IMG/VR virus record: IMGVR_UViG_3300007540_000069
Location: 1-29,407 of that record
Length of the DNA: 29,407 nucleotides
DNA from: a virus
Reading direction: 5' to 3' (one strand)
This document shows, piece after piece, positions 3,321 to 10,183 of the stretch (the first letter of the stretch is position 1; each line of letters opens with the position of its first letter). The notes under the pieces are model-generated. The model had not been told where the DNA came from and ran no database searches. It saw only the letters and a list, made by a program, of their open reading frames with translations. Made by a program: the position numbers and the translations under genes.

Positions 3321-4550
3321 ATGCGAATTATCAATATGTACACTAAGGATGGTTGCCCATTCTGCGTGAAGGCCAAGAGGTTTCTGGCTGATCGCGACAT
3401 TCGATTTACAACCCATGACCTTAGTGATGATGAACTTCGCAAGGACTTCTATCGCGATACGGGAACTTCAAGTGTTCCCCAGATTTATGCAACATGTGAT
3501 GGTGAGGAAGTTCATATTGGAGGCTATGATAATTTGATCGAGTCTCCGATTATTCTCGGACCTCAGATGTACATACCCAAAGAGGCGTATGTGTTCGACT
3601 ATAAGGCCCCGGTCGAAATGGCCAAGTCTCAGAATGATGTGTTCTGGACCTCAGATGAAATTGAAGTCGAAAAAGATGTTCAGGACATCATGGTCAACTT
3701 TACCGATTCTGAGCGCCATGGGGTGATTACGGTCCTCAAGCTATTCACCCTATATGAGCTAGTTGCCGGTAATGAATATTGGGGCGGTCGAGTCAAGAAC
3801 TCCTTCCCCAGACCAGACATCCAGAAAATGGCCAATTCTTTCTCATATTTTGAGATCAATGTCCATGCACCATTCTACAACAAAATCAACGAAGCCCTAC
3901 ACCTCAACAACGAAGAATTCTACACAGATTATGTGAACGATCCTGACCTCAAGGCTAGGATGGAATTTGTTGATGAATATGTCAACAATGAGGATGATGA
4001 TCTATTGTCTTTGGCAGTTTTCTCTATGGTTGAGGGAGCTGTCCTATATTCCTCGTTCGCATTCCTGAAGCACTTCCAATCCAAGGGTAAGAACAAGCTC
4101 CTCAATGTCGTACGAGGAATTAATTTCAGCGTACGGGATGAGAACCTACACTGTCTGGGTGGAGCATGGCTTTACAAGCAACTGAAGGCCGAACTAGAGG
4201 CTTCCAGAGCATTGGGTGACCACGAGGCCCGAGAACAGAAAATCATTGATGCTGCCATGCAGGTTCGCGACCACGAGTTTAGAGTCGTTGACATGATTTT
4301 CGAGAAAGGTGATATCGAAGGCATCACTAAGCGTCAAATGCAGCACTTTATCGAATCTCGGATCGACGAATGCCTTAAACAGCTCGACATGAAATCAATA
4401 TTCAAAGTCACATACAATCCAATTGCCGAATGGTTCTATGATGGGATCAATGGATATCAGATGAATGATTTTTTCACTGGGATTGGAAATCAATACAATA
4501 GAAACTGGAACGAAGACAACTTTACATGGGAACCCGAAGATGGTGAATGA
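3321..4550 (+). CDS. nrdB: Glutaredoxin-ribonucleotide reductase small subunit fusion (class I NrdB)
   Basis: A 409-residue fusion. Residues 1-80 are a glutaredoxin: active site CPFC (12-15), the cis-Pro loop TSSVP (49-53) and GGYD (67-70). From about 100 on is the radical-generating beta subunit of class I ribonucleotide reductase. Metal ligands can be placed at E146, E178, H182, E238, E274 and H277 (RDENLH), with Y186 in HAPFY at the radical-tyrosine position. E178 and H182 are four residues apart, whereas the usual motif is ExxH. The fused domain presumably re-reduces the C-terminal cysteines of NrdA. It overlaps nrdA by 11 bases. Grx fusions to RNR subunits are known but uncommon. Confidence 0.95.
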   Translation: MRIINMYTKDGCPFCVKAKRFLADRDIRFTTHDLSDDELRKDFYRDTGTSSVPQIYATCDGEEVHIGGYDNLIESPIILGPQMYIPKEAYVFDYKAPVEMAKSQNDVFWTSDEIEVEKDVQDIMVNFTDSERHGVITVLKLFTLYELVAGNEYWGGRVKNSFPRPDIQKMANSFSYFEINVHAPFYNKINEALHLNNEEFYTDYVNDPDLKARMEFVDEYVNNEDDDLLSLAVFSMVEGAVLYSSFAFLKHFQSKGKNKLLNVVRGINFSVRDENLHCLGGAWLYKQLKAELEASRALGDHEAREQKIIDAAMQVRDHEFRVVDMIFEKGDIEGITKRQMQHFIESRIDECLKQLDMKSIFKVTYNPIAEWFYDGINGYQMNDFFTGIGNQYNRNWNEDNFTWEPEDGE

Positions 4551-6249
4551 CTCAGACCTGACAATTATCGACAAACTCAGGGAGGAGCGTAAACTAGCAG
4601 TAGAAGCCGGAACGGCCCCCGATTGGTTGACTACTAATGGCTATCAATTATTTCAAAGCAAATATGTGCTGCCGGGCGAAACCGTAAAGTCCACGTTCGA
4701 GAGAATTGCCAAGGCCGCAGCTAAACACCTACCGGAAGACATCCAAGGACAGGCAGAATCAAAGTTCTTCCAGATGCTATGGAATGGCTGGCTGGCTCTG
4801 GCAACACCAGTACTCGCCAATATGGGAACAGCCAGAGGATGTCCTGTGTCCTGTTCCGGTGGATATGTCGAAGATTCGATCTATGGCTTCTACGATGCTC
4901 AATTAGAAACAGCGATCCTGACCAAAAATGGTTTCGGGACGTCTTCGTATCTGGGGAACATTAGACCGAGAGGCGCACCTATCGCTTCTGGTGGCCATGC
5001 GTCAGGCACATTGACAGTCTTGAAGGATTTCGTACAGTTATCTCGTGACGTCTCCCAAGGAAATACTCGTAGGGGCGCTTGGGCTGGATATATCGAGATC
5101 GATCACCCAGACTTCTTTGAAATTGTGGAACACATGTATTCAAATCCTGACGATTTAAATATCGGATGGATTGTATCCAAGGCTTTCATTGCCCGGCTAG
5201 AGGCTAATGATCCAGATGCAATTCGTCGATGGAAACGTGCGATGAAAACAAAATGCGTGACCGGTAAGGGATATCTATTCAAGGTCGATCATGTCAACGA
5301 TCAAAACCCTCCAATGTATGCCGCCCATGACCTATCAGTCAAGGCATCAAATCTCTGCACAGAGATCACTCTTCATTCAGATGCTGATCACACATTCACA
5401 TGTGTCCTATCGTCAATGAATGCATCCAAGTATGATGAATGGAAGAATACCGATTCCGTTTTCTGGGCAACGATCTTTCTGGATTGTGTTGCCGAAGAAT
5501 TTATCACATTGGGTCGCAACATCAGAGGGCTTGAGCGGGCTGTACGAGCTACCGAAAAGGGTAGGGCACTCGGGCTAGGACTTCTAGGTTATCACACCTA
5601 CATCCAGTCACACATGATCCCCTTCGAACAGTCCGCTGATATCAATATTGAGATATTCAAACACCTTGACGATGAAAGTCTTCGGGCATCGAAATATATG
5701 GCCGAGGTTATGGGAGAACCTGAATGGTGCCGAGGATTTGGAGTTCGCAATACTCATAGACTAGCTGTAGCTCCCAACACATCTTCGGCATTGATTTGTG
5801 GTGGCGTTTCTCAGGGCATCGAACCAGTGGTGGAGAATGTTTACAATCAGGCAACTGCTGCCGGAGAGATGGAACGGGTCAATCCTGCATTCATAGCCTT
5901 TGCAAAAAGTAGAGGAAAGTGGACCAAGGCCCTTGCAAAGAACATCATCGACACCAATGGATCAGTCCAACATGTTGACTGGATGACACCTCACGAGAAG
6001 GATGTTTTTAAAACCGCATTCGAGATCGATCAATACTCAATCTTGAAACTGGCTAGTGCCAGACAAAAATATATCGATCAGGCACAATCAATCAATTTGT
6101 TCTTTGGTGCTGATGCCCACGAGGCACATATTTCCAGAGTCCATAGGTATGGTTTGATGGATGATAATATCAAGAGTCTGTATTACATGAGATCGAAGGC
6201 CGGTATCAGTGCCGCCCGAGAATCTACCTGTGAATCCTGTGAAGGATAA
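4540..6249 (+). CDS. nrdA: Ribonucleotide reductase large subunit (class I NrdA)
   Basis: The ATG at 4540 overlaps nrdB and gives 569 residues; the longer reading from 4465 would run deep into nrdB. The protein reduces ribonucleoside diphosphates. Visible landmarks are the first active-site Cys in GCPVSCSGG (C105 or C101), N271/C273/E275 in NLCTEI, C288 in CVLSSMN, the radical-transfer pair Y548-Y549 and the C-terminal CESC (C564, C567). It is shorter than the roughly 750-residue cellular enzymes and has no room for an N-terminal ATP-cone, so overall allosteric dATP inhibition is probably missing. The C-terminal CxxC is the likely substrate of the glutaredoxin domain fused to NrdB. Confidence 0.95.
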   Translation: MVNDSDLTIIDKLREERKLAVEAGTAPDWLTTNGYQLFQSKYVLPGETVKSTFERIAKAAAKHLPEDIQGQAESKFFQMLWNGWLALATPVLANMGTARGCPVSCSGGYVEDSIYGFYDAQLETAILTKNGFGTSSYLGNIRPRGAPIASGGHASGTLTVLKDFVQLSRDVSQGNTRRGAWAGYIEIDHPDFFEIVEHMYSNPDDLNIGWIVSKAFIARLEANDPDAIRRWKRAMKTKCVTGKGYLFKVDHVNDQNPPMYAAHDLSVKASNLCTEITLHSDADHTFTCVLSSMNASKYDEWKNTDSVFWATIFLDCVAEEFITLGRNIRGLERAVRATEKGRALGLGLLGYHTYIQSHMIPFEQSADINIEIFKHLDDESLRASKYMAEVMGEPEWCRGFGVRNTHRLAVAPNTSSALICGGVSQGIEPVVENVYNQATAAGEMERVNPAFIAFAKSRGKWTKALAKNIIDTNGSVQHVDWMTPHEKDVFKTAFEIDQYSILKLASARQKYIDQAQSINLFFGADAHEAHISRVHRYGLMDDNIKSLYYMRSKAGISAARESTCESCEG

Positions 6250-6252
6250 ATA
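6245..6252 (+). promoter_or_regulatory. Possible T4-type late promoter element
   Basis: GATAAATA matches seven of eight bases of the T4 late element TATAAATA. It lies about 30 bases before the 6283 gene, whose product has a capsid-targeting-like N-terminus and would be expected late, and a gp33-like coactivator is encoded in this window. It overlaps the nrdA stop codon. One short match of this kind can arise by chance. Confidence 0.3.
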
Positions 6253-6282: not shown

Positions 6283-6810
6283 ATGCTAACATTTACCCAA
6301 TATCTTGCCGAAGCTAATGCCGAAAAATCAGCCCCAGAGAAAATCAGCAGATTTGAAGTTAAGCTTGGCACATCGAGGCTACACTCTCGATTATGGTATC
6401 ATCCAAAAACCGAAAAAGTAATTCTTGTGCCTATTGGTAGTAACCATTCACAGTTGGTTGCCGAGTTCCCGGAAAGCTTTGACTTAACTGACGATGAAAT
6501 TCCATCAGATAGACGAATTCGAGATTATGATGATGAGCTATTACACACTGTAATGGAAAAGGGTTGGGTTCGAGTTATGGTGGACATTCGATTCCCAGAA
6601 GCCAATTCAAATCTAGAAGCAACCAGCCATTTTGGTTTGAGGAAAGCCGCCCAATGGTATTTGGACACATTTCCTAATTTCAGAATGCTTGTTATATCAT
6701 TAAGAACCGGCCATACTGGCGATGTGCCTGATAGGGCTAAATTTAAAACTCTGGATCAGTCTGACATCGAAAGATTTATCAAATCCTCAACATGGACGAC
6801 TAAATCCTAA
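6283..6810 (+). CDS. Unknown protein with capsid-targeting-like N-terminus, 175 aa
   Basis: The first residues MLTFTQYLAEA closely follow the T4 capsid-targeting sequence MKTYQEFIAEA found on internal head proteins and on Alt. LAE matches the (L/I)xE consensus cut by the T4 prohead protease gp21, so cleavage after E10 is predicted. The remainder is a soluble alpha/beta protein with no recognised family (a conserved-looking segment is FGLRKAAQWYLDTFPNFRML). No clear Shine-Dalgarno sequence precedes the ATG. It opens a block of co-oriented, overlapping genes running to 9327. A packaged and injected protein is an inference from the N-terminus only. Confidence 0.75.
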   Translation: MLTFTQYLAEANAEKSAPEKISRFEVKLGTSRLHSRLWYHPKTEKVILVPIGSNHSQLVAEFPESFDLTDDEIPSDRRIRDYDDELLHTVMEKGWVRVMVDIRFPEANSNLEATSHFGLRKAAQWYLDTFPNFRMLVISLRTGHTGDVPDRAKFKTLDQSDIERFIKSSTWTTKS

Positions 6811-7229
6811 TGAGTTGGACATATGATGGTGTCGAGTTCACTGAAGCAAACGAGGACCATATCGGTTTCGTATACTGTATCACCGAACTCTCGACCGGAA
6901 AGAAATATATCGGCAAGAAGCTGCTGTGGAAAACAGTTAGACTTAAACCTCTCAAGGGAACTAAGCGAATCAGAAAGGTCAAGCGATCTTCTGACTGGCA
7001 GAAATACTATGGATCAAGTAAGGCACTAGAAGAAGCTATTGCCAAAAATGGTCATGAAAATTATCACCGAGAGATCATTAGGTTTTGTACCACCAAGGGC
7101 GAATTGTCGTATTATGAATTGAAGGAGCAGATTGACCGAAAGGTGCTGTTCCGGGAAGACTACTATAACGAATTCATTGGGGTTAAAATCCACTCCAAGC
7201 ATTTAGGAGCTTGTGATGAAACGATTTAA
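6810..7229 (+). CDS. SegE-like GIY-YIG endonuclease domain protein
   Basis: The 139-residue protein carries a GIY-YIG core: GFVYCIT (19-25) and KKYIGKK (31-37), then DWQKYYGSSK, an Arg-containing helix and YYELKEQ (101-107) with the probable metal-binding Glu103, and a late Asn120 (YYNEF). This matches the free-standing Seg-type endonuclease domains of T4-like phages. No intron or DNA-binding tail is visible, so it may be a solo homing endonuclease or a domesticated nuclease. The start ATG overlaps the stop of the 6283 gene (TAATG), and the 3' end overlaps the next gene by 14 bases. Confidence 0.85.
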   Translation: MSWTYDGVEFTEANEDHIGFVYCITELSTGKKYIGKKLLWKTVRLKPLKGTKRIRKVKRSSDWQKYYGSSKALEEAIAKNGHENYHREIIRFCTTKGELSYYELKEQIDRKVLFREDYYNEFIGVKIHSKHLGACDETI

Positions 7230-7929
7230 AAATATGATAGAAATGTCATCTGGTCCTGTTGGGTCTGGCTTTCCAAATAGAATGGATCGCTTTGACGAAG
7301 ACATGGAACGCATCCTAACCAAGATCGATGCATCTAATGTGCAGTTCAAGGACTTGGGTGTGAATGATCACATGCGGGTTATTGTCGGCGTATATAAGCA
7401 GGAGCCTAGAATTGTTCTTGGGATCGACCCTAGCTTAGATTTCAAGCGACCAGACTTCAGCTTTGTTGATGAGATCGGTACTGATATCGAAACCACCAAA
7501 TTATATTTCTACTCATCTGTGAAGAAGGATGATCATAATTTCGCCGGAGATTTGGTCAAGCTATCTGGGCAGGACGTTGCGTACGAGATGGACTTCCCTA
7601 AGGTCCATCCTAAAAAGGCAAGACTTGGACTGGCCACGTTCGCATATTCAGCTATGGCCAAGAGATATTACATTATGGCCGACCATGTGCAATCTACCGG
7701 AAGTCAACACGTATGGGCCAAGGTCATTGGAAATCGATTGGCACCGTATGCATATTCGGTTCTTATCAATGGATATCTCGGGAAGATAGAATTTCTTAAA
7801 ATGATCAATGGCAGTGCCAAAGATTATCAACAACATGCTACTAATTACGATACCGGTCACCTTGAACCGGAACAGCGACACGATTTTATTATCGGCCCCA
7901 AGAAGATTAAGCCCCGGAGAATGGGATGA
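7216..7929 (+). CDS. Unknown protein, 237 aa
   Basis: The ATG at 7216 is preceded by TAGGAG (7204-7209); a GTG at 7213 in the same frame is less likely. The first residues (MKRFKNMIEMSSG) only loosely resemble the capsid-targeting-like start of the neighbouring 6283 and 8584 products: Phe4 and Ile8 are shared, but there is no clean (L/I)xE. The rest is mixed alpha/beta, with GIDPSLDFKRPDFSFVDEIG and a basic C-terminus (KKIKPRRMG). No family is recognised. It overlaps its neighbours on both sides, so it belongs to the 6283-9327 operon. Confidence 0.75.
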   Translation: MKRFKNMIEMSSGPVGSGFPNRMDRFDEDMERILTKIDASNVQFKDLGVNDHMRVIVGVYKQEPRIVLGIDPSLDFKRPDFSFVDEIGTDIETTKLYFYSSVKKDDHNFAGDLVKLSGQDVAYEMDFPKVHPKKARLGLATFAYSAMAKRYYIMADHVQSTGSQHVWAKVIGNRLAPYAYSVLINGYLGKIEFLKMINGSAKDYQQHATNYDTGHLEPEQRHDFIIGPKKIKPRRMG

Positions 7930-8591
7930 CCGTGTTCGATAGAAACATACCAGAATCATCTGGACATCCTGAATATGCCTCAGAATATCATCACGGGGAC
8001 TACTTCGATGACGAAGCTGGTTCGTTTGCAACACAAATCGACCGACAAACTTCTGATGATATAGATTCAGAATTCATTGGACGAACAGACAAAGTTGTGG
8101 TATACCGTATATCTGCCAAGCGTTCTGATAATTATATTTTCGGCTTCGGTCCTGAATATGAGGGAGCCAATCCGCTTCATCTTCTTCACAAACAAGAGGC
8201 GATTATATTTGTAGGCCGGATTACACAATTCGAAGGCCAGCATCTAAGACATGTCGTGAAACCCAATGGACTTCCGTTCGCATCAGTATATTTACCCCTA
8301 GTCAGGAAAGAATTCCTCAGACAAGGGATTGCCGTTTCGATCTACAAGATGCTCACCCATCATTATAACATCGTGGCATCTAACGAGCAGTCGAAACAAG
8401 CCTCGTTTATGTGGAAAGAAAAGCTGAACCATGTCGTAAATCATATGTATTCTATTAGCGACAATCCTATCACGTTTGACGAGGTTACTGGTGACGACTC
8501 CAAATACCGTAGCCATATGATATCCCATAGTGATGCCGAACGGCATCATTTCGTGGCGACATCAAAACCATTAGAGCGAAAAAATGCATAG
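7926..8591 (+). CDS. GNAT-like acetyltransferase candidate, 221 aa
   Basis: The start ATG overlaps the previous stop (ATGA). The central part reads YLPLVRKEFLRQGIAVSIYKML and then IVASNEQSKQASFMWKEKL. The first segment has the R-x-x-G-x-A layout of the acetyl-CoA pyrophosphate loop, and the second the S...A...W...L helix seen near the end of GNAT folds. Strands expected before them (KVVVYRI, AIIFVGRIT) are present. The acidic, His-rich N-terminus (residues 1-45) looks disordered. The substrate is unknown. The call rests on motif spacing, so it is tentative. Confidence 0.55.
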   Translation: MTVFDRNIPESSGHPEYASEYHHGDYFDDEAGSFATQIDRQTSDDIDSEFIGRTDKVVVYRISAKRSDNYIFGFGPEYEGANPLHLLHKQEAIIFVGRITQFEGQHLRHVVKPNGLPFASVYLPLVRKEFLRQGIAVSIYKMLTHHYNIVASNEQSKQASFMWKEKLNHVVNHMYSISDNPITFDEVTGDDSKYRSHMISHSDAERHHFVATSKPLERKNA

Positions 8592-9327
8592 TTTTATCGA
8601 GTTTTTAAAGGAAGACCTACCCAAGGCCATCAAAGCAGCCAAACGGCTCTCAGCGGCCCCTCCTGACGTCTCAGGGATAAGTATGAAATCTAATCTCGCA
8701 GGCAGACAGGTTAAGATGCAGAAGTTTATCACAGGCTTTGTTGAGGAAGCCTTCAAGGGTGCCAAGCTGGTCAGTGATACTAGTGGATTTGCTGTGGTCT
8801 ATACTGCCAACAAATATGCGATACGAGTGACACACAAACCCGATCCAGCATATGAGAGATGGATTAAGTTTGTCACAAACCCTGCCGAACGAAGTCAGTG
8901 GCCAGCTATCGTATCAACTCCGAAAATCTATATCTCATTTAGATATGGTGGTGGTCGAAACACCGTTACGATCATGGAGAAGTTGAAGCCACTTAATTCC
9001 GAACGAATTAACCTGATCAGACTTCTATGGAACAACGACACCATTTGGAATGACATACCGGATAAGTACAAGAAGAAGTATGGTAAATTTATTCGGGAAT
9101 ATGATAAGGTTGGCGAATGGGCTGGCATAACCAGAGGCGTTGAAGCAGACCTTCATTCGGGAAACATAATGATGAGATTTGGTGGGCAGATGATATTCAC
9201 TGATCCTGTATATTCTAGGAATAATGCCGAATCAATTCCAGAAGCCGCAGATATAGTAAATGATATCGATGATATCGAAATTATGTATATTGATCCTGAG
9301 CTAGCAAAGGCACTCAAGGACACATAG
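8584..9327 (+). CDS. Kinase-fold protein with capsid-targeting-like N-terminus
   Basis: The 247-residue protein contains ADLHSGNIM (188-196), with D189 and N194 as the catalytic-loop residues of kinase/aminoglycoside phosphotransferase folds, and FTDPV with D207 at the DFG-Asp position. EKL (132-134) could be the hinge. The expected strand-3 lysine is not obvious (KYAIRV, 77-82). The N-terminus MHSFIEFLKE has the spacing of a T4 capsid-targeting sequence with an (L/I)xE cleavage site. A phosphotransferase packaged in the head and delivered with the DNA would parallel T4 Alt; this is inference. It overlaps the GNAT-like gene by 8 bases. Confidence 0.65.
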   Translation: MHSFIEFLKEDLPKAIKAAKRLSAAPPDVSGISMKSNLAGRQVKMQKFITGFVEEAFKGAKLVSDTSGFAVVYTANKYAIRVTHKPDPAYERWIKFVTNPAERSQWPAIVSTPKIYISFRYGGGRNTVTIMEKLKPLNSERINLIRLLWNNDTIWNDIPDKYKKKYGKFIREYDKVGEWAGITRGVEADLHSGNIMMRFGGQMIFTDPVYSRNNAESIPEAADIVNDIDDIEIMYIDPELAKALKDT

Positions 9328-9340
9328 GAAAGCGAATATT

Positions 9341-10183
9341 ATGATTTTAGTTGATTTCAGTGGAGTGGTATTCAGTCGAATCGTCCACTCCGAAACTCCC
9401 CAACCAATGTCTCTGGACGAAACCAGACATGTTATTCTGGCTGCCCTACGGGAGATCAGGGTTAAGTTCCCGAATCATGGAACCATGGTAATATGCTGTG
9501 ACAATGGCTCATGGCGGCGTGATGTGTTCCCGCAGTACAAGGCCAGACGTCGAGAGACTAGAGCCAATGATGGTATTGACTATGCGTCTATGTGGGAATC
9601 AGTCAATACCGTTCTGGACGAGATCGATGCGCATATTCCATGGCTGGTGATCAGGCAACCTAATACTGAAGCTGATGACATCATTGGAACCTTGGTGCAT
9701 CACAATCCAGCAGACCCTATCATGATAGTGTCTAGGGATAAAGACTTCATCCAGCTCCATGGGCGACCGAATGTTTATCAGTACGATCCGATCACAAAGA
9801 CTAGGGTCTATGCAGAAGATGCCCGTAGGTATGCATTCGAACATCTGATCCGAGGAGATGTCGGTGACGGCATTCCCAACATCCTGTCTGAGGATAACTG
9901 CTTGTCTGATCGCATCCGGCAGAAGTCTATTACCAAAAAGGTTCTGGCCGATTTCATATCGGAAGACAGTTCAACTTTACTCACCGGTAATATGGATGCC
10001 GACACAATCAGACGATTGAAAAGAAATCTCAAATTGATTTCACTTAGTCATATTCCCGATGAGATCGTTAATGGCATTCTTGACGGGTATGAGAAGAGCA
10101 ATTCAATTACTATCGGAACCCCGTTGGAGTATTTCATCAATAAAAACGTGAACTTTAAAGATATGGTAGGAGATTTCCGATGA
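9341..10183 (+). CDS. rnh: RNase H / 5'-3' exonuclease (T4 Rnh, FEN-like)
   Basis: The 280-residue protein has the acidic clusters of the FEN/T4 RNase H family: D5 (MILVDFSG), D54 (ICCDNGSWRRDVFPQYKAR), E110-D112-D113 (EADDIIG), D133/D135 (SRDKDF) and D173/D176 (RGDVGDGIPNI) at the start of the helix-hairpin-helix. It removes RNA primers and adjacent DNA from lagging-strand fragments, working with gp32. The start is preceded by AGGAAAG. In T4 this gene lies near 33-59-32; here it sits about 14 kb upstream of them. Confidence 0.92.
   Translation: MILVDFSGVVFSRIVHSETPQPMSLDETRHVILAALREIRVKFPNHGTMVICCDNGSWRRDVFPQYKARRRETRANDGIDYASMWESVNTVLDEIDAHIPWLVIRQPNTEADDIIGTLVHHNPADPIMIVSRDKDFIQLHGRPNVYQYDPITKTRVYAEDARRYAFEHLIRGDVGDGIPNILSEDNCLSDRIRQKSITKKVLADFISEDSSTLLTGNMDADTIRRLKRNLKLISLSHIPDEIVNGILDGYEKSNSITIGTPLEYFINKNVNFKDMVGDFR

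Follow-up and report, generated by a model that had tools for sequence, protein, structure and literature searches.

The locus and its virus

Does the operon at positions 6283–9327 of this viral DNA encode proteins that travel inside the phage head and enter the host cell together with the genome? The preliminary description proposed as much from N-termini that resemble the capsid-targeting sequence (CTS) of phage T4. In T4 this tag brings a protein into the prohead core, gp21 cuts it after Glu10, and the protein is ejected with the packaged DNA; the cargo includes anti-restriction proteins and Alt, which modifies RNA polymerase (PMC9026906, PMC3012670, PMC5694885). We give a probability of roughly 0.7 to the reading that the operon likewise encodes CTS-tagged, protease-processed internal head proteins that are injected with the genome.

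The window, by which we mean the whole 29,407-nt stretch of DNA that was analyzed, is the entire record of IMGVR_UViG_3300007540_000069, a virus fragment, and IMGVR_UViG_3300025543_000062 (42.4 kb), a second contig of this virus in IMG/VR, adds approximately 13 kb upstream of it. Scans of IMG/VR with protein 8584, protein 6283 (proteins are named here by the first position of their genes), RNase H and an alignment of 8584 with its relative in phage DLP6 returned three further contigs of this virus and nothing else. Since the phage carries T4-type replication genes (gp32, RNase H and a helicase loader) as well as PhoH, we place it in the T4 lineage, and from this gene content it is an uncultured T4-like virus of bacteria.

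The operon lies on the plus strand, with nrdA before it and the RNase H gene after it, and consists of four genes (6283, 7216, 7926 and 8584) plus a gene for a SegE-type GIY-YIG endonuclease at 6810–7229 (PF19835, E = 3.9e-35), the product of which has no CTS. Gene 6810 starts at the stop of 6283, and the pairs 6810/7216, 7216/7926 and 7926/8584 overlap. In the neighboring region of the window, the ribonucleotide reductase small subunit (3321–4550) has a glutaredoxin-like domain fused at its N-terminus (phrog_22 match, residues 4–74), and NrdA (4465–6249), from its listed start, shares 86 bp with nrdB; its translation more likely begins at an in-frame ATG near 4540. On the upstream contig L008, the gene at 3–1553, cut off by the contig start, encodes an open protein of 516 aa that matches nothing in Pfam or PHROG, and by eye it appears to contain repeated modules with NES/NEA-type sites between them, so that it could be a protease-processed polyprotein. 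The cytidyltransferase-like protein at 9304–10080 of the same contig (phrog_395) begins with MIKSFSKFMGKLP, in which the CTS-like aromatic spacing is one residue off and the Glu is missing.

A late-promoter-like site had also been described ahead of the first gene. The sequence GATAAATA is indeed found at 6245–6252 on the plus strand, some 30 bp ahead of the ATG at 6283, and it overlaps the stop codon of NrdA. The window contains 4 copies of ATAAATA vs. 5.9 expected, a count within chance; on its own the site therefore does not count as evidence, and we rejected it as support.

Occurrence of the capsid-targeting-like motif

The first gene of the operon (6283–6810) encodes a 175-aa protein beginning MLTFTQYLAE|A, and the last (8584–9327) a 247-aa protein beginning MHSFIEFLKE|D, where the bar marks the predicted cut after Glu10. 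The spacing of the T4 tag that the preliminary description attributed to these two N-termini is confirmed, with F4, Y7, L8 and E10 in the CTS-like propeptide of 6283 (codons 1–10, 6283–6312) and F4, F7, L8 and E10 in that of 8584 (codons 1–10, 8584–8613), as is the presence of an (L/I)xE prohead-protease site in each, LAE in the former and LKE in the latter. T4 mutagenesis has shown residues 4 and 7 to act in targeting and residues 8 and 10 in processing (PMC9026906), and the capsid-targeting reading gains support because these same positions are conserved here. The body of 6283 offers little further guidance, as relatives outside its own virus were undetectable in Pfam, PHROG, IMG/VR and the cultured phages, and a single-sequence structure model (pLDDT 43, helix at 4–13) is too weak for use.

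It is important to consider that such a likeness could arise by coincidence, with ordinary cytoplasmic phage proteins (kinase-like 8584, the paralogs 7216 and 7926, and the orphan 6283) simply happening to start M..F..[FY]L.E, and the fact that the motif fixes just four loosely defined positions makes this a reasonable concern. We defined the full motif as aromatic at 4, aromatic at 7, hydrophobic at 8 and Glu at 10, and scanned the 70 gene starts of the combined 42-kb contig. Only 6283 and 8584 match, both in one operon, where 0.011 matches are expected from composition (P ~6e-5, a value that is indicative only, the motif having been fixed post hoc after the data were seen). No full match follows any of the 352 internal Met codons of the 42-kb contig, and the same contig has no match to the motif displaced by −2 to +5 residues. 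The identical scan of 48 kb of T4, as a positive control, returned ipII and ipIII only, and 77 other viral loci around nrdA, 1.27 Mb in all, gave a single full match. This rarity speaks against coincidence, which we regard as unlikely although it keeps some weight, since 7216 and 7926 both fail the full motif.

The partial matches nevertheless have a pattern of their own. Aromatic-4 together with hydrophobic-8 occurs at five listed gene starts, among them 6283, 7216, 7926 and 8584, which are all of the non-endonuclease genes of the operon. The product of 7216 (7216–7929, 237 aa; ATG at 7216, with an in-frame GTG at 7213 as well) had been called a looser match, and this description holds: its degenerate start MKRFKNMIEM keeps F4 and I8 but has M7 and M10. 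The 221-aa product of 7926 (7926–8591; MTVFDRNIPESSG) was overlooked in the preliminary description; it begins MTVFDRNIPE|S, with F4, I8, E10 and an IPE site, and departs from the motif only in having N in place of an aromatic residue at 7. Since 7216 and 7926 are paralogs, they do not count as independent cases of the motif.

The kinase-like protein and the paralogous pair

Protein 8584 matches phrog_15752 (E = 5e-11), a profile that places it distantly within the protein-kinase family of T7 gp0.7. Its putative catalytic loop and metal-binding Asp lie in DLHSGNIMMRFGGQMIFTDP (9148–9207), where D189, N194 and D207 (DxxxxN plus the metal-binding Asp) are invariant across six aligned proteins. 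The Gly-loop is degenerate (SDTSGFAVVYT) and an Arg takes the place of the beta-3 Lys (YAIRV), which differs from what is seen in active kinases; because of these two features the protein may be inactive, and hence we use the term "kinase-like". A PDB sequence search with 8584 gave no meaningful match. An alignment of six kinases proved too weakly conserved to serve as a scanning query, and a degenerate DNA pattern for the kinase contained too few fixed bases.

The gp0.7-type kinases of T7-like phages are reported to inactivate several bacterial defense systems by phosphorylation, and one family member, JSS1_004, inactivates DndFGH and targets other defense proteins too; it is an early gene product made after infection, it has a C-terminal shutoff domain, and the family has been described as almost exclusive to Autographiviridae (PMC12345140). 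Protein 8584 resembles T7 gp0.7 and JSS1_004 in matching the profile and in keeping the catalytic Asp, the Asn and the metal-binding Asp, whereas it sits in a T4-like phage, carries a CTS-like tag, differs in the Gly-loop and beta-3 positions given above, and extends only about 40 residues beyond the kinase C-lobe, where JSS1_004 has its shutoff domain. Of 28 records of phages and viruses, three (RHph_I1_18, DLP6 and Munch) contain kinases of this family. The relatives in DLP6 and Munch have no CTS tag, as would be expected if the N-terminus of 8584 were a coincidence.

The paralogy of 7216 and 7926 is evident from BLASTP (E = 3e-6), and 7926 also has a weak match to phrog_3307; a phrog_3307 search of 28 related records gave no match, and its control was likewise without a match. 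A central segment of the pair, e.g., VRKEFLRQGIAVSIYKMLTHHYNIVASNEQ, looks by eye like GNAT motif A, and from this motif reading we describe both proteins as putatively acetyltransferase-like; neither matches a GNAT profile in Pfam at E = 10, and we do not class them as GNAT members. The PDB fold search with the pair gave no usable match and the PDB sequence search no meaningful one, the single-sequence model of 7926 (pLDDT 47) is too weak for use, and among cultured phages there are no convincing homologs of either protein.

Similar tags in other T4-like phages

The remaining kinase-bearing record, that of Rhizobium phage RHph_I1_18, includes a T4-type head module and a protease homologous to T4 gp21. 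Its kinase QIG70573 (L012 1201–1866; phrog_15752, E = 9.5e-8), of the same family as 8584, has the CTS-like N-terminus LKSFSEHIAES, with an annotated TTG start, and the next gene starts MISFKSHLNES, also CTS-like. A T4-like phage other than the window phage, and one that encodes a gp21-type protease, thus places this kind of tag on a kinase of the 8584 family, which argues against coincidence. QIG70573 and 8584 are alike in family, in their CTS-like start and in being followed or accompanied by another CTS-like gene, while they share only 25% identity over the alignment; QIG70573 keeps the beta-3 Lys and the Gly-loop, has His at 7 instead of Phe/Tyr/Trp, and has no head-protein annotation.

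CTS-like N-termini occur on approximately 10 different proteins of RHph_I1_18, several of the others beginning M-[IQ]-[STP]-F-K-[QE]-H-[IL]-x-E-S. Two proteins with CTS-like starts that are annotated as hypothetical (L097 1134–1613, minus strand, and L012 1866–2567) look ADP-ribosyltransferase-like by eye, with HGTS and LYRGH motifs, and one of them has a weak PARP match. Caulobacter phage Cr30 has a single full-motif protein, MKTFKQFFNES, which is ADP-ribosyltransferase-like (PARP E = 0.0018, below the curated cut-off; RNA 2'-phosphotransferase PHROG E = 1.4e-6) and in this respect reminiscent of T4 Alt. Taken together, RHph_I1_18, Cr30 and T4 give 10 matches at the correct offset vs. 0–3 at other offsets. 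We rejected the pooled gp21 loci as statistical support for the tag, since the 10 matches at the correct offset are approached by shifted offsets (up to 9) and equalled by the reversed motif (10); homologous genes with conserved internal starts perhaps inflate all counts in these loci.

A second alternative is that the shared N-terminus docks these proteins to something else, e.g., a phage partner that they share inside the cell, without packaging or cleavage. A short amphipathic tag on otherwise different proteins would suit any docking partner, and no head genes are seen on the 42-kb contig itself: no gp20–gp23 head module or gp21 is seen on this fragment, which is a partial genome, a Peptidase_S77 search of it gave no match (the control genomes were equally without a match), and two gp21 scans of IMG/VR found no contig from the same metagenomes. 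These negative results also count against the capsid-targeting reading. The location of similar tags in other phages points instead to the prohead core. In RHph_I1_18, the protein located between the portal and the protease begins MKKFGDFLED, with Asp at 10, a residue that in T4 IPIII allows targeting and blocks processing (PMC9026906), and in the gp21-linked contig L112 the sequence MLSFIDFLTES begins a protein directly upstream of gp21 that matches a head-scaffold PHROG (E = 0.0015). The hydrophobic residue at 8 and Glu at 10 moreover match the protease site specifically, and we find docking for another purpose quite improbable, more so than coincidence.

Individual gp21 loci also contain sequences close to the T4 tag. 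In L196, tandem small proteins directly downstream of gp21 (8663 and 9056) begin MTTYRQFIVER and MTTYRQFIAEA, the latter similar to the T4 CTS itself. A lytic transglycosylase-like protein in a contig with gp21 (L141 8519–8938; DPBB_1, E = 2.3e-12) has the full CTS-like start MKTFKQFVIEA and is possibly another tagged cargo.

Proposed route into the host cell

We return to capsid targeting as the preferred reading. Each of the four proteins would carry a short N-terminal CTS propeptide, complete in 6283 and 8584, partial in 7926 and eroded in 7216, in which residues 4 and 7 would direct docking in the core of the prohead. A gp21-type protease of the phage would then cut after Glu10, and the mature proteins would be packaged and subsequently injected along with the DNA. 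Inside the host they would act on host proteins, most plausibly blunting host functions or defenses before phage gene expression, with 8584 acting in a kinase-like and 7216/7926 in an acetyltransferase-like capacity and 6283 by an unspecified route. A gp0.7-family protein delivered with the DNA could phosphorylate host or defense proteins immediately. That the proteins are targeted, cut, packaged and injected is something we infer by analogy with T4, and what they do as enzymes, and to which host proteins, is likewise inferred.

The analogy to IPI, IPII, IPIII and Alt of T4 seems reasonable in that the aromatic residues at 4 and 7, the hydrophobic residue at 8, Glu10 and the predicted cut site are the same, and in that one genome places one tag on several different proteins. 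The systems differ in that the protein bodies are unrelated, the cargo here being kinase-like and acetyltransferase-like, and the tagged genes of the window are grouped in a single operon, with nrdA on one side and the RNase H gene on the other; the T4 proteins are packaged and cleaved, and for those of the window both steps are predicted. The earlier proposal of injected internal head proteins is thus partly supported, the capsid-targeting reading having survived the rarity scan, the T4 control and the comparison with RHph_I1_18, and loses its late-promoter argument.

Implications

T4-style capsid targeting with unusual cargo is well supported but unproven. That a T4-like phage packages operon-encoded, capsid-targeted, host-directed enzymes (a gp0.7-family kinase and an acetyltransferase-like pair), with modification of the host or its defenses from the moment of DNA entry, is a more tentative proposition, and one that we hold at somewhat less than even odds. 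If true, modification of host or defense proteins would be broad and would begin before the expression of any phage gene. The gp0.7 kinases of T7-like phages need to be expressed in the cell first, whereas a relative targeted to the capsid would come in with the phage DNA.

In T4-like phages, CTS-like N-termini would also make injected proteins easy to look for from sequence. The full-motif proteins in T4 are known internal proteins, and the tagged set of RHph_I1_18 and Cr30 includes kinase-like and ADP-ribosyltransferase-like proteins now annotated as hypothetical or unplaced. For the virus described here, the tagged operon suggests that host-modifying proteins are delivered into the cell together with the DNA.
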